A DNA stretch of 61,332 nt from positions 1-61,332 of the IMG/VR virus record IMGVR_UViG_3300028883_000051; one strand, 5' to 3'. The notes beneath the pieces are model-generated. The model was not told the origin of the DNA and searched no databases. It saw only the letters and a program-made list of their open reading frames with translations. Shown one piece after another: positions 14,906 to 58,975 of the stretch. Origin of the DNA: a virus. A program made the position numbers and the translations under genes. Position 1 is the first letter of the stretch. Every line of letters begins with the position of its first letter.

Positions 14906-14976
14906 TGTCAATCGTTTTATTTCTTACGTTATGTTTTCTCTGTTATTTGTTTATTAATGGGGATGACAGGATTTAG
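14905..14976 (+). CDS. Possible 23-residue membrane microprotein
   Basis: ATG overlaps the previous stop (TAATG). The product 'MSIVLFLTLCFLCYLFI...' is almost entirely a hydrophobic helix with a charged C-terminus (GDDRI). The last 18 bases overlap the 5' end of the tRNA-like RNA at 14959, which weakens the case. The same TAATG-coupled layout encodes another 23-residue membrane peptide at 59953-60024. Confidence 0.4.
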   Translation: MSIVLFLTLCFLCYLFINGDDRI

Positions 14977-15031
14977 ATTACCGGGCTTACATTTAGACGG
15001 TAACACCCCGGTTCGATTCCGGGCATCTCCA
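14959..15031 (+). tRNA. tRNA-like RNA without D-stem or standard anticodon arm (tmRNA tRNA-like-domain mimic?)
   Basis: A 7-bp acceptor stem (14959-14965 with 15024-15030) ends in an unpaired A (15031). A perfect T-arm (CCCGG, TTCGATT, CCGGG; 15007-15023) is canonical. The third acceptor pair is G:U, the alanine identity element, with A73. The 41-base middle has normal length but no D-stem and no standard anticodon stem. Instead 14978-14982 (TTACC) pairs with 14999-15003 (GGTAA), extended by a few inner pairs. The unpaired ACAGGATTTAGA recalls the D-loop region of tmRNA. CCA is not encoded. A decayed tRNA is the main alternative. Confidence 0.55.
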
Positions 15032-15033
15032 CT

Positions 15034-15096
15034 AACTGCAATGCCCTTACCTTACTTTACTTGGACGTGAAAGCGGGGGGTATTGCAGTTTTTTTT
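15034..15096 (+). terminator. Intrinsic terminator
   Basis: A 13-bp stem, AACTGCAATGCCC (15034-15046) with GGGTATTGCAGTT (15078-15090; one G:T pair), is followed by a run of T. It ends the operon that starts at 11207 and begins only 3 bases after the tRNA-like RNA. Confidence 0.88.
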
Positions 15097-15146: not shown

Positions 15147-16244
15147 ATGAAGGTTTTTGGGTATCATATGGGGCCGAATTATCACGGAAATAGGCTTTTA
15201 GATTTATATGGACGTGGTAAGACTCCGGCTGTAGCCCTTACATTACTTGATAACAGAGAAGGTATTCCTGAGCTTATTCACCAGCATCCTGAAACGATGA
15301 TTATTGCACGCCGCTGGTGGGCGGGAAATAATCCAAATGGGGATGATAACGCTCAGGATTACATGGAAGGTGATGCTTATATGGATGGGCTTGTTACTTT
15401 CTACGGAAAGAACAAGGATGCTTACTACTACGTAGGCAATGAGCCGACACCTGCGACGTTACAGGATAAATTGCGGCTTGTTGAATTTCTGGAAAAAGCC
15501 GTAAAGTATGCCGTCGATTACGGTTACAAAATTGTTATCGGTAATTTCTCTGTCGGTAATCCGTCAACTGCGGATATTACAGGTGTTCTTTCTCCTATCT
15601 TCCGTCTTGTTGAAAAGTATGATAACGTCTATCTCGGTATGCACGATTATGGCGCATATCGTGGTCGCCGTCCCGACGGTAGCCCGGATGTATTCTTTCC
15701 TAATAAAGCGGCAGAAATCGTACAGCATTTTCCCGGCTGCTTCAATAAAATTATCCTTACAGAGGTTGGGCTTGATCGTCTCGTCCAATTTCCAAACAGC
15801 GGTAGTTGGAAAAAGGTACGGCTTACCGATGAAGAATATGCCGATGTACTACACCGGATGTACGTAGATTACTGGCGTTTTGCTGGCGTAATCGGTGCTT
15901 GTGTGTTCTTTTGGGATACTGATGAACACCGTTGGGGCGATTATAATATGTACCGCGCATCGGCGTTCCAGAATCGCGTATTGCAAACGGATCAGCTTCT
16001 TGTACTTCCGCCTACTACCGGGGATGATGATGACGATGACGATGATACACCGCCATCACTTCCACCGGAAATTGAACTTGATGATATAGAGGATGCGCTT
16101 ACCGAACTGGTTAGCATTATCAATGAAATCAAGGCTGCGCTGTCAAGTATCGATGGAGCTTTTTCGCTGGTAATTAATAACACAACGGAAAGTTATAATC
16201 TGGCGACACAGCTACTTGATAAAATTCAAGAACTAAATGATTAA
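15147..16244 (+). CDS. Clan GH-A-like glycoside hydrolase, candidate cell-wall lysin
   Basis: 365 residues from the ATG at 15147 (AAGGAG 8 bases upstream; the frame also opens at a GTG at 15138). Residues ~1-280 look like a TIM barrel: acid/base in 'YYVGNEPTP' (E99), nucleophile in 'ILTEVGLD' (E206) and an aromatic 'FFWDTDEHRWGDY' near strand 8, the pattern of clan GH-A. Next come a linker with eight Asp (residues 293-300), 'PPSLPPEIE' and a ~55-residue coiled coil. No signal peptide. It stands alone between two terminators. No other endolysin is evident in the window, so a lysin role is inferred. Confidence 0.7.
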   Translation: MKVFGYHMGPNYHGNRLLDLYGRGKTPAVALTLLDNREGIPELIHQHPETMIIARRWWAGNNPNGDDNAQDYMEGDAYMDGLVTFYGKNKDAYYYVGNEPTPATLQDKLRLVEFLEKAVKYAVDYGYKIVIGNFSVGNPSTADITGVLSPIFRLVEKYDNVYLGMHDYGAYRGRRPDGSPDVFFPNKAAEIVQHFPGCFNKIILTEVGLDRLVQFPNSGSWKKVRLTDEEYADVLHRMYVDYWRFAGVIGACVFFWDTDEHRWGDYNMYRASAFQNRVLQTDQLLVLPPTTGDDDDDDDDTPPSLPPEIELDDIEDALTELVSIINEIKAALSSIDGAFSLVINNTTESYNLATQLLDKIQELND

Positions 16245-18401: not shown

Positions 18402-18430
18402 AGTATAACATATTGCTCATTCTTTGTCAA
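18402..18430 (-). promoter_or_regulatory. Sigma70 promoter of the dcd-tmk cassette
   Basis: Minus strand: TTGACA (18425-18430), 17-bp spacer ending in TATGT, TATACT (18402-18407). Back-to-back with the terL promoter; the two -35 boxes are 6 bp apart. Confidence 0.9.
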
Positions 18431-23499: not shown

Positions 23500-23526
23500 T
23501 ATGTAGTAAGTAAATAAAGAATAAGA

Positions 23527-23554
23527 GAGAAAAGCATACGCTTTTCTCTTTTTT
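23527..23554 (+). terminator. Intrinsic terminator after the capsid genes
   Basis: GAGAAAAGC (23527-23535), loop ATAC, GCTTTTCTC (23540-23548), six T. Separates the head genes from the glycosylation cassette. Confidence 0.9.
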
Positions 23555-53035: not shown

Positions 53036-54823
53036 TCAGATTGAACAAACACTATATCCACACGAGTAACATTTTTTACAACCATCTTCAAAGATTAAGC
53101 CATTACCACAAATAGGACATGCTTCCTTCTTTTCTAATACCTGTTCGTTACGGCTCTTATCACGATATACCGTAGCTCCTTTCACCTGCTTTGACCATAG
53201 CTCAAAATAAACTTTACTGACATCCTGAATAGTTGCTTCAGCGGGTAAGTTAATCGTCTTGGATACGGCGCTGTCAATATAATACGCTACCGTAGCCAGC
53301 ATAGCAATATGATCATCTACAGAAATATCATCCATAGCAGATACCATAGCTTTTTTACGGCCTTCTGTAGGATACTCATTTACAAAATCTACGATTTCAG
53401 GTGTGATCGTATACGTACCGATACGGCTGTTTCGCTGATACGAATACATAAAGTGCGGCTCAATACCTGTAGATACGTTATACATAGTTCCTACCGTACC
53501 CGTTGGCGCAATAGATAGAACAGTAGCATTACGTAAGCCGAATTGCTTAATCATAGCAATAGTAGATGAATCAAGTTTATCCATAAAAGCGCCGTCAAGA
53601 TGTAGCTCGCTGTAATTGGGAAACGTACCATATTCCTGTGCAAGTCTTGCACTTTCCATATATGCGATATTCATGATGTTATCAAACAACGTGGCAGTAA
53701 ATACGACGGCTTCAGGACTACCGTATACGAGTGCATTTTTAATCAGTAAATCATGTAAACCGAGTACGCCTAAGCCAATACGCCTATCTTTCTTTTGCCG
53801 ATCATCTACTTCTGGTAATACGGAATCTGCTCTATCAATAATAGCGTCTAAGAAACGGACACCTTCTCTTACCGTTGTTTCCAGCAATTCCCAATTTACA
53901 CCTTCATAACTATCATACATTTCTGATAGGTTAATATGCCCTAAATTGCAGACACCATAAGCAGGAAGCGGTTGTTCACCACAAGGATTAGTCGAAAGCA
54001 AGTGGCCTTTATACCACACAGGGTTGTAATAATTTGCTGTATCCCAAAACAGAACGCCCGGTTCTCCACTTTCCCATGCCGATGTAACGATAATTTTCCA
54101 TAAATCACGTGCTTTTACCGTCTTATAATCAATAACGGGAAAGCCTTTACGTTTCCATATATCAAGATCACCATTCCACTCTGTATCATAAAGATAATGT
54201 GACGTATCAGGAAAACTTAGCGTCCAATCATGGTTATATTTTACGGCTTCCATAAAAGCATCGGTTATAAGTACGGAAAGATTAGCGTTTGTAAAGACGC
54301 TGTTATTCTTTTTCACGGTGATAAATTCAATAATATCAGGATGCCATATACCCATTGTAAGCATAAGAGCGCCCCGTCGTGTACCGCCCTGCATTATAAG
54401 ACCTGTAACGTTACTGTACAACTCCGCCCATGATACCGCGCCGCTGGACTTACCGACAACCTTTTTAATTTCAGCGTCTTTAGGACGTAAAATAGATATG
54501 TTAATACCGACACCGCCGCCATGAGCCATAATCTCTGTCTGGTCGGCTAAGGCTTTCATGATACCTTTTCTGCTATCTTCTTTAATAGGTATAACAAAAC
54601 AATTATACGGTGTATTAGATTTAGTTCCTTCTGTTACCTGTGCTGTTCGCCATATTCGCCCGGCGGGTACAAATAACTTTTCTTCCAATAACCACATAAT
54701 TGTATCCCATGCTTCATTATCTCGTGGATATACATAATCAGCTATTTGCATCATAGCTTCTTTAACTGTATGCCCGTTTGCATAACGATCTTCAAATATC
54801 TCTTTTCCTACGGTATTAAACAT
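53036..54823 (-). CDS. nrdJ: Class II (adenosylcobalamin-dependent) ribonucleotide reductase
   Basis: 595 residues. 'TPYNCFVIPI' has the first active-site Cys; 'NPCGEQPLPAYGVCNLGHINL' (near residue 283) has the radical Cys and Glu; 'GLGVLGLHDLL' and 'SIAPTGTVGTMYNVSTGIEP' are class II features. 'NLPAEATIQDV' and 'ATVYRDKSRNEQVL' precede a C-terminal 'CPICG...CKKCYSCGYSVC' redox and zinc tail. No ATP-cone and no separate small subunit, as for class II. Makes dNTPs with B12 in aerobic or anaerobic hosts. Strong ribosome site AAAGGAGC. Confidence 0.94.
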   Translation of the reverse strand: MFNTVGKEIFEDRYANGHTVKEAMMQIADYVYPRDNEAWDTIMWLLEEKLFVPAGRIWRTAQVTEGTKSNTPYNCFVIPIKEDSRKGIMKALADQTEIMAHGGGVGINISILRPKDAEIKKVVGKSSGAVSWAELYSNVTGLIMQGGTRRGALMLTMGIWHPDIIEFITVKKNNSVFTNANLSVLITDAFMEAVKYNHDWTLSFPDTSHYLYDTEWNGDLDIWKRKGFPVIDYKTVKARDLWKIIVTSAWESGEPGVLFWDTANYYNPVWYKGHLLSTNPCGEQPLPAYGVCNLGHINLSEMYDSYEGVNWELLETTVREGVRFLDAIIDRADSVLPEVDDRQKKDRRIGLGVLGLHDLLIKNALVYGSPEAVVFTATLFDNIMNIAYMESARLAQEYGTFPNYSELHLDGAFMDKLDSSTIAMIKQFGLRNATVLSIAPTGTVGTMYNVSTGIEPHFMYSYQRNSRIGTYTITPEIVDFVNEYPTEGRKKAMVSAMDDISVDDHIAMLATVAYYIDSAVSKTINLPAEATIQDVSKVYFELWSKQVKGATVYRDKSRNEQVLEKKEACPICGNGLIFEDGCKKCYSCGYSVCSI

Positions 54824-54844
54824 ATAAGCTCCTTTATGATAGAT

Positions 54845-54881
54845 AAAAAGAGACAGGGAAAATTTGATAAATTCCCTGTCT
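54845..54881 (-). terminator. Terminator 22-28 bases before nrdJ
   Basis: Minus strand: AGACAGGGAA (from 54881) pairs with TTCCCTGTCT (to 54851) and CTTTTTATC follows. Standing between promoter and gene, it must be bypassed for nrdJ expression. Confidence 0.85.
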
Positions 54882-55070
54882 AATTGTACTGTATTAAAAA
54901 AATTACAGGTGGAAAAACTTTAGTGAGGACAAAAGAGATAAACCAATATTCTTACTCTATTTAAGGGTAGGTAAGGTTTATCTGAGTTCCTTACTGATTT
55001 TATATATTTAAGTGACAAAATAACAAAACAAGGCTAATCCAATATTAGGTAACGTTTTGTAGAGTTCACT
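54845..55070 (-). ncRNA. Structured leader or small RNA between Ro60 and nrdJ
   Basis: About 225 nt from a perfect promoter (55077-55105) to an intrinsic terminator (54851-54881). Long imperfect stem: AGTGA (55066-55070) with TCACT (55011-55015), ACAAAAC (55054-55060) with GTTTTGT (55023-55029), CTAAT (55044-55048) with ATTAG (55034-55038). Downstream, AGATAAACC (54975-54983) can pair with GGTTTATCT (54936-54944), or its CCTTAC part can pair with GTAAGG just upstream. Alternative pairings plus a terminator suggest a riboswitch for nrdJ; closeness to Ro60 also allows a Y-RNA-like partner. Sequences are given for the minus-strand RNA. Confidence 0.6.
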
Positions 55071-55076
55071 GTAAAT

Positions 55077-55105
55077 AGGATACCACAAAAAAAGTTACTT
55101 GTCAA
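55077..55105 (-). promoter_or_regulatory. Sigma70 promoter of the nrdJ leader
   Basis: Minus strand: TTGACA (55100-55105), 17-bp spacer, TATCCT (55077-55082). Confidence 0.85.
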
Positions 55106-55115
55106 CATCCCTGTA

Positions 55116-55133
55116 TTAGAAATTCAATAGAAT
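55116..55133. promoter_or_regulatory. TTAGAAA-N4-ATAGAAT motif
   Basis: 11-bp period; exactly 10 bp upstream of the -35 box, the same geometry as 43854-43871. Confidence 0.4.
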
Positions 55134-56684
55134 TGTTTCCAGTACAACCGGATCGTCAATGCCGGGCAAAACAAATACTGCCGGATCACGTATATCCGCT
55201 AGATTATATTCATTCGGGGCCATAGCCATGATAATCAGTTTAGCGTCAGGATTGATCATCTGACGATACGTATCAAATAACTGCATAACATGGTGTCCGG
55301 TATTGACTTCACTATCGGTAAACACAACAAAAGCATCGTAATACGTATTATATTCTATTGCTTTTTCAAACAGTAAACCCGGATTAGTTGCCCCGTGTAA
55401 CTGATTCTGTAAATACGTAGCAAAGTTATAATAGGAAAAATTATATACATCTTCTTCTACAGGCATAAGATAATGGGAAAACATATAAGCCGTTGTTTTC
55501 TCTTTTTCAAGCAATAACTTTCCGATAAAGGCTTCCATCTCATAACAGGTAAGTGGGCCATTATTCCATCCCATAGATGCGCTAATATCAAAGCCTACGC
55601 ATAGCCGCTTTCCTGTTGGCTTATAATGCTGCTGGCTTATACCGACAGCTTCATTTAATGCCCTGACAATTTTAGGATACACGTGCCATGTACTATGCCT
55701 GCCTTTTGCACTCTTATATACCATAAGTGCTTTAAAGATATGATAAGGGTGCATGTGTACATTTTTAATTCTTTTGGTATTCGTAATATGATCAATCATT
55801 ATTTCTAGAAAATCTTTATTCTCAAAACAGCCTACACGTGACATTGTAGATAAATTACGGATAAGAGCACCATAAGGCATACTGTGCGCAAGCGTCATCC
55901 ATACACGCGGATACTTCTTCTGTTCCGGTGTAAGCATATCGTGCGTAACGGTAAAATCAAATACATTATACAGAGTATCAATTAAATCTATAAGTTCTGC
56001 TTCTGTTAGACTTGCATCTTTAAGTGCAAAGATATGTTCAAGTAAATCATTATTGCCTGTATCGGTGTACATATGATACCGTACAATATCTTGGTGTTCA
56101 TCTTTAAGTTTTGGATGATATGTTGTAAACACAAGTTTATGGCTTACATCATTTCGTTCCGGGTATTTTACCATTTGATATGTAAGCTGCGCTGTAGAAC
56201 GAGTATTGTACCAATCTGCTACGGCACGTTTTACTGCCTGTCCTGTGCCTCTTATTTGCTTAAGATAAAAAATAAACATTAAGAAATGTGACGCAGTACG
56301 AATTTCCGGAATATAAGCAATAGCTTCTTTCCGAATATCAGGAATAGAACTATTACATGCTACGGCAAGAGCAAACAGCGTATAGTCCGGCTTAATAAAA
56401 ATACTATGTTTATAGGCGTTCTTAATCATAAACAGAAACAAAGATGCTTGTTCCTTATGATTAAGACCACCTTCTGTTAGGCGTATAAATCGTGAAGCCT
56501 GCCGGGCTTCTAGGCTATAATACGTAGATACAGCACCTAGTACCAGATATTTCTTGAACGTCAGCAATTCGCTCTCTGGAAATACATAGGCACCTTCTGC
56601 GTTCAGTACCATATTTTCTTTGTAGGGTTGGTATACTGAATCGTCATTACTATAACGCTTGCGGACAATATCTTTAAACATCAT
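55116..56684 (-). CDS. rsr: Ro60-like RNA-binding protein (TROVE plus VWA domains)
   Basis: 522 residues; two adjacent ATGs (56684, 56681) follow GAAAGGAAC. Residues ~30-350 form HEAT-like helical repeats with Ro60 hallmarks: 'SLFLFMIKNAYKH', 'RGTGQAVKRAV', 'RNDVSHKLVFTTYHPK', 'YGALIRNLSTMSRVG'. The C-terminal VWA domain has the MIDAS start 'GFDISASMG' (366-370). Ro60 proteins bind Y RNAs and misfolded RNAs and can guide nucleases. A phage copy is uncommon. It is the first gene of its own promoter unit, upstream of the nrdJ leader. Confidence 0.9.
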   Translation of the reverse strand: MMFKDIVRKRYSNDDSVYQPYKENMVLNAEGAYVFPESELLTFKKYLVLGAVSTYYSLEARQASRFIRLTEGGLNHKEQASLFLFMIKNAYKHSIFIKPDYTLFALAVACNSSIPDIRKEAIAYIPEIRTASHFLMFIFYLKQIRGTGQAVKRAVADWYNTRSTAQLTYQMVKYPERNDVSHKLVFTTYHPKLKDEHQDIVRYHMYTDTGNNDLLEHIFALKDASLTEAELIDLIDTLYNVFDFTVTHDMLTPEQKKYPRVWMTLAHSMPYGALIRNLSTMSRVGCFENKDFLEIMIDHITNTKRIKNVHMHPYHIFKALMVYKSAKGRHSTWHVYPKIVRALNEAVGISQQHYKPTGKRLCVGFDISASMGWNNGPLTCYEMEAFIGKLLLEKEKTTAYMFSHYLMPVEEDVYNFSYYNFATYLQNQLHGATNPGLLFEKAIEYNTYYDAFVVFTDSEVNTGHHVMQLFDTYRQMINPDAKLIIMAMAPNEYNLADIRDPAVFVLPGIDDPVVLETILLNF

Positions 56685-56716: not shown

Positions 56717-56745
56717 AATATAACATAATACATAACTTTTGTCAA
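56717..56745 (-). promoter_or_regulatory. Sigma70 promoter of the Ro60 gene
   Basis: Minus strand: TTGACA (56740-56745), 17-bp spacer ending TTATGT, TATATT (56717-56722). Confidence 0.88.
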
Positions 56746-57308
56746 TCAGATCGTATATTAATCAGCGGGGCTGCGACTACTACATCATTTGATACATGAT
56801 ATTTTCTGTTAAAAATTGCTTGGTGTTTTCTGTAATAAGCACCATGCCCGTACTCTATTTGTAAACTACCCCTATCATTTACATAAAAATGATCGTCAAA
56901 GGTATCATTATGTTCATGTATTTGTGGGCCGATATAGATTTGATTTGTTACTAATTTTTCTGTATCTACGTCAAAGCCTTCTGGAAAGTAACCTTTCACA
57001 TAATGTAATACAATGTGTTTTTTATAAAAGATATAACGATCCGGTTCATTATCCCAAAATCTTTTACTGTACCAGTGAATACATGCCATCCTATGTAAAT
57101 ATACCATATACGTACTGATATATTTTAAATTAGGTAAAATATGGAAACCAGATTTACAAAGAATAAGTTCCCCATTATAGTTATAACGTTTACCTTCTTC
57201 TACTGGCACATTAAGTAAATCATAAGAAAATCGTGGAAAATCATTTATATTTGGTTTAAAAAAAAGTTTAAACCCGGTATACCACGCATCAGGATTTGTT
57301 TTATACAT
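56742..57308 (-). CDS. DUF7666-like protein, paralogue family C member 1
   Basis: 188 residues. N-terminal pattern 'WYTGFKLFFKPNINDFPRFSYDL' then 'GELILCKSGFHILPNLKYISTYM' matches the K-hF......C..GFH.....-l..Y plan of DUF7666-type phage and bacterial proteins. Rest of the protein unique. One of four tandem paralogues (56742-58975). Function unknown. Confidence 0.72.
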   Translation of the reverse strand: MYKTNPDAWYTGFKLFFKPNINDFPRFSYDLLNVPVEEGKRYNYNGELILCKSGFHILPNLKYISTYMVYLHRMACIHWYSKRFWDNEPDRYIFYKKHIVLHYVKGYFPEGFDVDTEKLVTNQIYIGPQIHEHNDTFDDHFYVNDRGSLQIEYGHGAYYRKHQAIFNRKYHVSNDVVVAAPLINIRSD

Positions 57309-57314
57309 ATCAAT

Positions 57315-57860
57315 TTACCCTTTCTTTGGATCACAATAGACGGTAGTCCATAGCATCTTTTCTGCGGCATTACTCACAATAGCTTTTTCTTCTTTTGTCC
57401 ATTGTAAATAATCTAACATATCTCTATCGGTAATTATACTTATATCAAGACGGGCCATAAGCCTGCGTCTAAACCGATCACCGATAAAATCCCATAATGA
57501 TGTAAGTTCTATCTTGTCGTATACAAACAGATAATCGGTAGCAAATATTTCCGGGTAATGGCTATTATAAGATAAGTTATTCCACGCTATACCACCTACA
57601 AGATACAATTGTACGTTACCTTTATGTAGGTTATACAAGGCATATTGTGTATGCTCCCGGCGTGTATCCTGTGAAAACATAATATATGCTAAATTTGCAA
57701 GCGTATCTCTTGGATTTGTATACAGATGAAAACCGCACGTACCAAAACGTACTTGTTGTAAGTGTATATACGTCGTTTCCAGTGTCACAGGCGTATCACG
57801 CATATCAAAGTTAAAATGATTATTGTAAAACCACTTGTACCCATACCATAGCTTTGCCAT
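57315..57860 (-). CDS. DUF7666-like protein, paralogue family C member 2
   Basis: 181 residues: 'WYGYKWFYNNHFNFDMRDTPVTL' then 'RFGTCGFHLYTNPRDTLANLAY'. AAAGGATATAAG precedes the ATG. Same N-terminal module as its neighbours with a different C-terminal half. Confidence 0.72.
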   Translation of the reverse strand: MAKLWYGYKWFYNNHFNFDMRDTPVTLETTYIHLQQVRFGTCGFHLYTNPRDTLANLAYIMFSQDTRREHTQYALYNLHKGNVQLYLVGGIAWNNLSYNSHYPEIFATDYLFVYDKIELTSLWDFIGDRFRRRLMARLDISIITDRDMLDYLQWTKEEKAIVSNAAEKMLWTTVYCDPKKG

Positions 57861-57861
57861 C

Positions 57862-58479
57862 TTATATCCTTTTGTCTGTTAAATCAATCAGCGGGTAGTA
57901 TTCTTTATCACGATAAATATCAAGCATACCTTTCATTTCCGGACGTGTCCACATATACGGCTTATATGAAAAATAAGGCGTACATTTAAACGTAAAATCC
58001 TTTGCCGTCGTACCGGGCATATAAGGGTTTTTGTACCCCTGTGCAATACTATGTATAAACGTATGGTTATCTACAATCGGTTCGTGTACCCACAATAGAT
58101 TTGATACAACTATTTTTCCACTGGAGTCATAACCCACATGCTCATATAATCCTGTATAATTTACAAAAACTTTATATACGGTTAATCTATCAAGAAACTT
58201 AAAAGAAGAATACTTATTACGATGACTACTAGGGTAGAAATGACCACTGTGGTATAAATACCGTATAGCATATTTAATATCTTCCAAAGCAGTATAGATA
58301 TGAAATCCAGTATTACATAAACGTGGTCTGATATTAAGAAAATACGCTGTTTGCCGTCTTACGGGTACATATTTAAGATCATAATTAAAATAACTAGTAC
58401 CATCTTCATTGGTAAAAAATAACTTATAACCAAAAGAACAACTTGTACTAAAACCACCTAATATCTGTTTGTATTCCAT
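57862..58479 (-). CDS. DUF7666-like protein, paralogue family C member 3
   Basis: 205 residues from the ATG at 58479 (GGGAGATTAAA upstream; the frame extends to 58503). 'SFGYKLFFTNEDGTSYFNYDL', 'KYVPVRRQTAYFL', 'RLCNTGFHIYTALEDIKYAI' is the clearest copy of the shared module. Confidence 0.72.
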   Translation of the reverse strand: MEYKQILGGFSTSCSFGYKLFFTNEDGTSYFNYDLKYVPVRRQTAYFLNIRPRLCNTGFHIYTALEDIKYAIRYLYHSGHFYPSSHRNKYSSFKFLDRLTVYKVFVNYTGLYEHVGYDSSGKIVVSNLLWVHEPIVDNHTFIHSIAQGYKNPYMPGTTAKDFTFKCTPYFSYKPYMWTRPEMKGMLDIYRDKEYYPLIDLTDKRI

Positions 58480-58489
58480 TTTAATCTCC

Positions 58490-58975
58490 CTAAAGATTAA
58501 CAAACTCTACTGAACGTGTATTAAGATAATACTCCCATGCCGCTTTATTTTTATCCGTCCACATGTAATCGCTATAATGCTTAAGTAGTTGTTCATAAGA
58601 GTGTAGTCTACAAACATCTATAAGAAGTGCATCCGGTAATCTATCAACAACAAAGAGTTTATTTGTTACCGCTTTACTACGATAAGATGAATAAATCTTA
58701 TGTTGCAGATTACAGATAATATCCTTTCCCGTAGCAATTACCCGATATAAATTTACCGTTTTATTTGGGTCATACTTTTGAAACATCTCATATAACACCA
58801 TAGAATATATACTTAAATCTGAAATATTTTCATAAAAATGTAAACCCTGTTTACATAAAACAGGATACTTATCCAGAATATAACCTGTTCTTTCTTTTAC
58901 AAGCACGTGTTCAAGATTAAATGAAAAATGCGCAGGCGTACCCATAAACACTTTATAACCAAATACACTATCCAT
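58490..58975 (-). CDS. DUF7666-like protein, paralogue family C member 4
   Basis: 161 residues: 'VFGYKVFMGTPAHFSFNLEHV' and 'VLCKQGLHFYENISDLSIYSM'; GLH replaces GFH. ATG overlaps the previous stop (TAATG) so it is coupled to the 157-residue gene upstream. Confidence 0.72.
   Translation of the reverse strand: MDSVFGYKVFMGTPAHFSFNLEHVLVKERTGYILDKYPVLCKQGLHFYENISDLSIYSMVLYEMFQKYDPNKTVNLYRVIATGKDIICNLQHKIYSSYRSKAVTNKLFVVDRLPDALLIDVCRLHSYEQLLKHYSDYMWTDKNKAAWEYYLNTRSVEFVNL

Follow-up and report, generated by a model that had tools for sequence, protein, structure and literature searches.

A phage nrdJ gene preceded by a promoter, two tandem copies of a structured RNA element and a terminator: a candidate transcription attenuator

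The described systems that come closest to the locus reported here are of several kinds. Riboswitches with tandem homologous aptamers and one expression platform are described in PMC9481103. According to the account in PMC9378689, the put RNA of phage HK022 opens a phage transcript with two stem-loops and brings about antitermination via the zinc-binding domain of RNA polymerase. The nrdJ motif is presented in PMC8388888 as found by Rfam search, and YrlA RNAs are defined in PMC8394870 as molecules of 90-150 nt with an end-joining stem and a tRNA-like domain. The classes of ribonucleotide reductase in phages are treated in PMC3653736.

The window analysed here is the whole of IMG/VR virus record IMGVR_UViG_3300028883_000051, a stretch of 61,332 bases that carries terminase, portal, tape measure, DNA polymerase, helicase and further phage genes. 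Between a Ro60-like gene and nrdJ, the gene for a B12-dependent ribonucleotide reductase, lies a leader that measures about 228 nt between its promoter and the end of its terminator. A first-pass annotation had placed a sigma70 promoter, a leader and an intrinsic terminator before nrdJ; these parts are real, and all of them, together with both genes, lie on the minus strand, which that annotation had left unstated. The features are as follows.

55116..56684, minus strand: gene for a Ro60/Rsr-like RNA-binding protein, 522 aa, the upstream neighbour, with its own promoter at 56745-56717
55077..55105, minus strand: sigma70-type promoter, TTGACA-17-TATCCT with extended -10; predicted +1 near 55070, placed from the spacing
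55011..55070, minus strand: hairpin domain H1, +1 to +60; 5-bp lower stem, ACUCU/UAUUUUG internal loop, 8-bp upper stem, UUACCUA, small apical stem
54922..54995, minus strand: hairpin domain H2, +76 to +149; lower stem with an A.C mismatch, ACUC/CUUUUG internal loop, 9-bp upper stem, UUACCUA
54905..54909, minus strand: CCUGU, +162-166, candidate antiterminator strand (predicted pairing)
54875..54879, minus strand: ACAGG, +192-196, in the 5' arm of the terminator, partner of CCUGU (predicted pairing)
54842..54881, minus strand: intrinsic terminator from a stem scan; perfect 10-bp stem (54881-54851), then CTTTTTATC (U-run)
54829..54835, minus strand: Shine-Dalgarno sequence AAAGGAG of nrdJ, directly after the terminator
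53036..54823, minus strand: nrdJ, adenosylcobalamin-dependent class II ribonucleotide reductase, 595 aa, ATG at 54823

The B12 dependence that had been assigned to the reductase is borne out: the protein scores 524.7 bits against TIGR02504 (adenosylcobalamin-dependent reductase; cut-off 399.95) and does not reach the cut-off for TIGR02506, the class I model, so that, judged by its sequence, it is a true adenosylcobalamin-dependent class II enzyme. The Ro60-like protein lies above the Pfam cut-offs for TROVE and vWA_Ro60, and scores 150.5 against the NCBIfam Rsr model, far under that model's cut-off of 900. Terminase matches occur in 24 of 398 genomes of the phylum to which a Clostridioides mangenotii locus belongs, the eight best at 38-45%, and suggest, without showing it, a Bacillota host. 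Elsewhere on the minus strand, four adjoining genes of 161-213 aa (56742-58975) appear by eye to be diverged copies of each other, with a GFH-type motif in common, and the gene at 15147 begins in a similar way. Two members of the group (56742 and 57315) were scanned and gave no Pfam match.

About 7 nt separate the end of the terminator from the Shine-Dalgarno sequence, and only that sequence and its spacers lie between the terminator and the ATG; there is no room for a second promoter, and therefore nrdJ can be transcribed only by readthrough of the terminator. Since the terminator adjoins the Shine-Dalgarno sequence, a transcript of nrdJ must pass it whether it begins at the leader promoter or at that of Ro60. 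The usual insulating order, terminator (23526-23549) and then promoter (23557), is found elsewhere in the same phage and is reversed at nrdJ. Ten TTGACA-N16-18-TANNNT sites, the leader promoter included, are present in the window, against 3.1 expected and a count reached by none of 100 shuffles. The promoter type TTGACA...TATGTTATANT with extended -10 is common to sites at 18402, 18437, 23557, 51519 and 56717, and drives several genes. Perfect stems of at least 9 bp followed by a T5 run occur at six places in the window (one bidirectional structure being listed repeatedly) and at none in 20 shuffles; the terminator of the leader, with a segment fold energy of about -15.9 kcal/mol, was missed by a simple terminator scan because its loop is 11 nt long. 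On the plus strand, at 1384-1410, a perfect terminator-like stem of 11 bp with a T5 run falls within a reading frame that is open on the other strand (967-1452).

Upstream of the terminator, the leader holds what comparison of its sequence and predicted pairing identifies as two tandem copies of one structured element, which the first-pass annotation had omitted. H1 and H2 (60 and 74 nt, separated by a 15-nt linker) share one layout, in which a lower stem leads to an internal loop (5' side ACUC, 3' side UUUUG) and this to an upper stem with 8 or 9 pairs, followed by UUACCUA. Their 5' halves are identical at 17 of 22 nt, the 3' block UUUUGUC is present in both, and the unpaired blocks are identical, while the apical parts differ. 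When pairs were counted by script on a hand alignment (MAFFT misplaced the 3' halves), none of the 13 comparable pairs was broken, and four of the eight pairs of the upper helix were changed on both sides with pairing kept, that is, by compensatory change. All five compared pairs of the lower stem are identical in the two copies and thus show no compensatory change; the lower stem of H2 has three extra positions per strand, one of them the A.C mismatch. The direct repeat by itself is equalled in 22 of 1000 shuffles and is for that reason not decisive. A structural descriptor (at least four lower and at least eight upper pairs around ACUC/UUUUG) matched twice in the leader, 78 nt apart and within 150 nt, and once in 2,705,694 bases of other DNA searched on both strands, figures that serve as a guide and carry no p-value because the descriptor was derived from the two copies themselves.

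Two internally looped stem-loops that begin at +1 of a phage transcript also invite comparison with HK022, whose putL, in the description given in PMC9378689, follows closely on its promoter and forms two stem-loops. By this analogy H1 and H2 would act on RNA polymerase as put RNA does and make it resistant to terminators, with nrdJ constitutive or under host control. We regard this as very improbable: put measures about 70 nt in total according to the same source, whereas the two domains here are similar copies of 60 and 74 nt joined by a linker, and only one terminator lies closely downstream.

The leader as a whole folds better than shuffled sequence (z -3.7; in a repeat estimate z -3.6, with 2 of 300 shuffles as good), which agrees with its earlier description as structured; without the terminator the value is z -1.95, with 13 of 300 shuffles as good. 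Much of the folding signal of the whole leader is the terminator. Competing helices had also been proposed, and one such pair can be named: the 5-bp helix CCUGU/ACAGG has a predicted pair probability of 0.66-0.83 in the nascent prefix, before the 3' arm of the terminator is made. This candidate antiterminator is short and is predicted to be much less stable than the terminator: once the leader is complete, the best fold that keeps the CCUGU/ACAGG helix lies about 12 kcal/mol above the terminator fold, which is consistent with a default OFF. A further, transient hairpin, GUAAGG/CCUUAC, is predicted to involve the 5' arm of H2 and to use the conserved UUAC; at 150 nt the state that contains it is 9.1 kcal/mol worse than H2. 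Ribosome-mediated attenuation by a leader peptide was rejected, as the leader contains no start codon with a ribosome-binding site: there is no ATG, and the GTG at +2 (11 codons) and the TTG at +53 (32 codons) both lack one.

A simpler account of the terminator is that it merely ends transcription of Ro60, with partial readthrough feeding nrdJ and no sensor role for the leader. The terminator does lie downstream of Ro60 on the same strand, and a terminator-like stem stands within 130 nt of nrdJ in 5 of 77 other phage nrdJ loci; in the two of these five that were inspected (L102 and L119) it looks like the terminator of the upstream gene. That account, however, leaves unexplained why a separate promoter should stand about 225 nt ahead of the terminator and why there are two covarying tandem copies, and the other phage nrdJ loci examined, for 75 of which the gap before the gene was compared, showed nothing comparable to this leader. 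Here the gap is 292 nt, against a median of 22 nt in those 75; it reached 150 nt or more in seven of them, most of which, by eye, represent missed coding sequence. We therefore consider a mere Ro60 terminator unlikely.

None of the 4227 families of Rfam matched the leader at its gathering threshold. At E<=2 over the window nothing appeared at the leader, and at E<=10 the region 54750-55200 gave only weak matches (E 0.9-7), far under gathering scores, which were taken as chance. A cobalamin riboswitch was rejected on this ground and on a best match to the core of the B12 box with two of seven positions mismatched against the consensus, in keeping with the first-pass view that the leader is not an obvious member of that class. 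T-box RNA was likewise rejected, with no Rfam match and a best match in which 6 of 13 specified bases were mismatched. The nrdJ motif, which had been put forward as a candidate, found no support: the Rfam search gave no match to it at E<=10 in 54750-55200.

The second candidate put forward earlier, a Y-RNA-like transcript, leads to another explanation of the locus, in which it is a small-RNA gene: a stable RNA of about 228 nt would end at the terminator, perhaps as a ligand of Ro60, and nrdJ would be expressed by leaky readthrough. The promoter, RNA and terminator form a complete unit that adjoins the Ro60 gene, Y RNA can sit near Ro60, and sub-threshold YrlA matches occur in four of six phage loci with Ro60 searched with the same library. 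The leader itself, though, does not look like an RNA of this type: YrlA (RF02553) gave no match at E<=10 in the record and no other Y RNA family matched, and in the predicted fold the 5' and 3' ends are unpaired, with no end-to-end stem and no tRNA-like domain, so that it falls outside the YrlA definition. Linkage of Ro60 and nrdJ was seen in one of 80 Ro60 loci (the best 80 of 212), by a partial match at 28%, and a better tRNA-like RNA exists elsewhere in the record, at 14959-15034. Taken together, these points make a small-RNA gene improbable, and the Y RNA proposal found no support.

The RNA at 14959-15034 (plus strand) is tmRNA-like, about 72 nt long and without an mRNA-like part, with an acceptor stem GGGGATG/CATCTCC that includes a G.U wobble, a T-arm, the tail CACTA and, 3' of it, a strong terminator-like hairpin with a T run. 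It scores 43.2 bits against the Rfam tmRNA model (gathering score 47; E 7e-14 over the window) and folds with z -4.5; ARAGORN calls nothing there, and 39 nt match annotated mycobacteriophage tmRNA features at 87%. Possible explanations are a decoy, a relic or an unusual tRNA mimic that partners Ro60. Near Ro60 in the Gordonia phages GMA2 (L017, 6776-7321) and Sixama (L019, 6941-7945), a tmRNA accompanies a sub-threshold YrlA match, of 43.1 and 46.8 bits respectively (gathering score 69); weaker matches were present in L018 and L015. The GMA2 locus also contains a Pistol ribozyme above its gathering score between tRNA genes (L017, 7497-7553).

Conservation between phages is the usual proof of such a leader. 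No relatives of it were found in the viral contigs, genomes, phages and plasmids searched, and Ro60 and NrdJ as single-protein queries gave no match in the viral contigs. The closest phage relatives came from a terminase search, which returned five loci at 48-55% on contigs of 4.8-11.9 kb. The tandem element was absent from the loci retrieved by alignment searches, namely the best 80 of 212 Ro60 loci and the best 80 of at least 596 NrdJ loci. Ro60 was found in none of those 80 NrdJ loci, and because its linkage to nrdJ is not conserved among the loci compared, the adjacency of Ro60 to the leader is probably incidental.

Searches by motif pattern led to the same result. In viral DNA they gave two and three matches, read as chance; four of these five look coding from their sequence and open reading frame lists, and the fifth (L010) was judged on sequence alone. 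The same three sequence blocks were present in 26 bacterial or archaeal contigs, with about 43 matches to the blocks expected by chance (a hand estimate with equal base frequencies), and both helices in none of them. A relaxed pattern matched at least 119 stretches in viral contigs and, in all DNA together, gave 147 matches in 146 records; two near-identical stretches (L296 and L305) have four lower and six upper pairs and lie, by eye, inside an open reading frame. A single pattern match among the 398 genomes mentioned above was the already known Clostridioides mangenotii locus itself, and a 54-nt match to the leader in an Acinetobacter plasmid (E 0.7) was taken as chance. In the open-access papers searched we found no phage riboswitch with a link to a reductase and nothing like this leader among phage or viral riboswitches. 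So far the leader stands alone.

We prefer to read the leader as a cis-acting attenuator that controls transcription of the phage's nrdJ through a doubled sensor, OFF by default and relieved by an effector. We put the probability of this reading at roughly 0.55, a moderate confidence, since a single sequence carries the whole argument. The architecture of a transcription-attenuating riboswitch, as the first-pass annotation had it, is supported and is strengthened by the tandem element; of that interpretation as a whole, the attenuator and its non-cobalamin character are supported, and the nrdJ motif and the Y RNA are not. The sequence itself shows a strong promoter, then the two structured copies and, ahead of nrdJ, the terminator; in the attenuator as we picture it, termination would be the default. 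The two copies would form a doubled sensor for one effector, whose binding during transcription would favour the CCUGU/ACAGG helix over the terminator and so switch nrdJ on. The effector might be a small molecule tied to the function of the class II reductase, or an RNA-binding protein; which ligand binds, and which way the switch works, is guesswork. A more specific version, that of an undescribed tandem-domain riboswitch class in which two cooperating ACUC/UUUUG-loop copies sense a small molecule linked to class II reduction (such as a nucleotide or, despite the missing classical B12 box, adenosylcobalamin) and open nrdJ by antitermination, is tentative and in our judgement doubtful.

Ribonucleotide reductases of their own are common in phages, and to our knowledge little is known of how phages time these enzymes or tune them to the cofactor supply of the host. 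If a doubled sensor does control this B12-dependent enzyme, it would offer a direct handle on whether a phage measures the B12 or nucleotide state of its host, and would add a sensor RNA that lies outside every Rfam family. The kind of system is already known; that its sensor matches no known RNA family suggests, as far as sequence comparison reaches, an undescribed RNA switch.

Set beside the known systems, the leader resembles each in part. It stands upstream of nrdJ, as the nrdJ RNA motif does by its name, and differs from it in having no Rfam match, the comparison being by Rfam search alone. A cobalamin (AdoCbl) riboswitch would suit a B12-dependent reductase, but the leader has neither the B12 box nor the Rfam match. 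With YrlA and Y RNA it shares the neighbouring Ro60 gene, and it differs from them in family match, end-to-end stem and tRNA-like domain, none of which it has. Its likeness to HK022 put, as far as the published description of that RNA goes, lies in two internally looped stem-loops that open a phage transcript, and the difference in domains that are larger, duplicated and separated by a linker. Unlike the tandem-aptamer riboswitches of the glycine and NAD+-I type, it has no Rfam match to such a class, is phage-borne and has no relatives found; like them, as they are presented in the source cited at the outset, it has two similar domains and one terminator before the gene that would be controlled.
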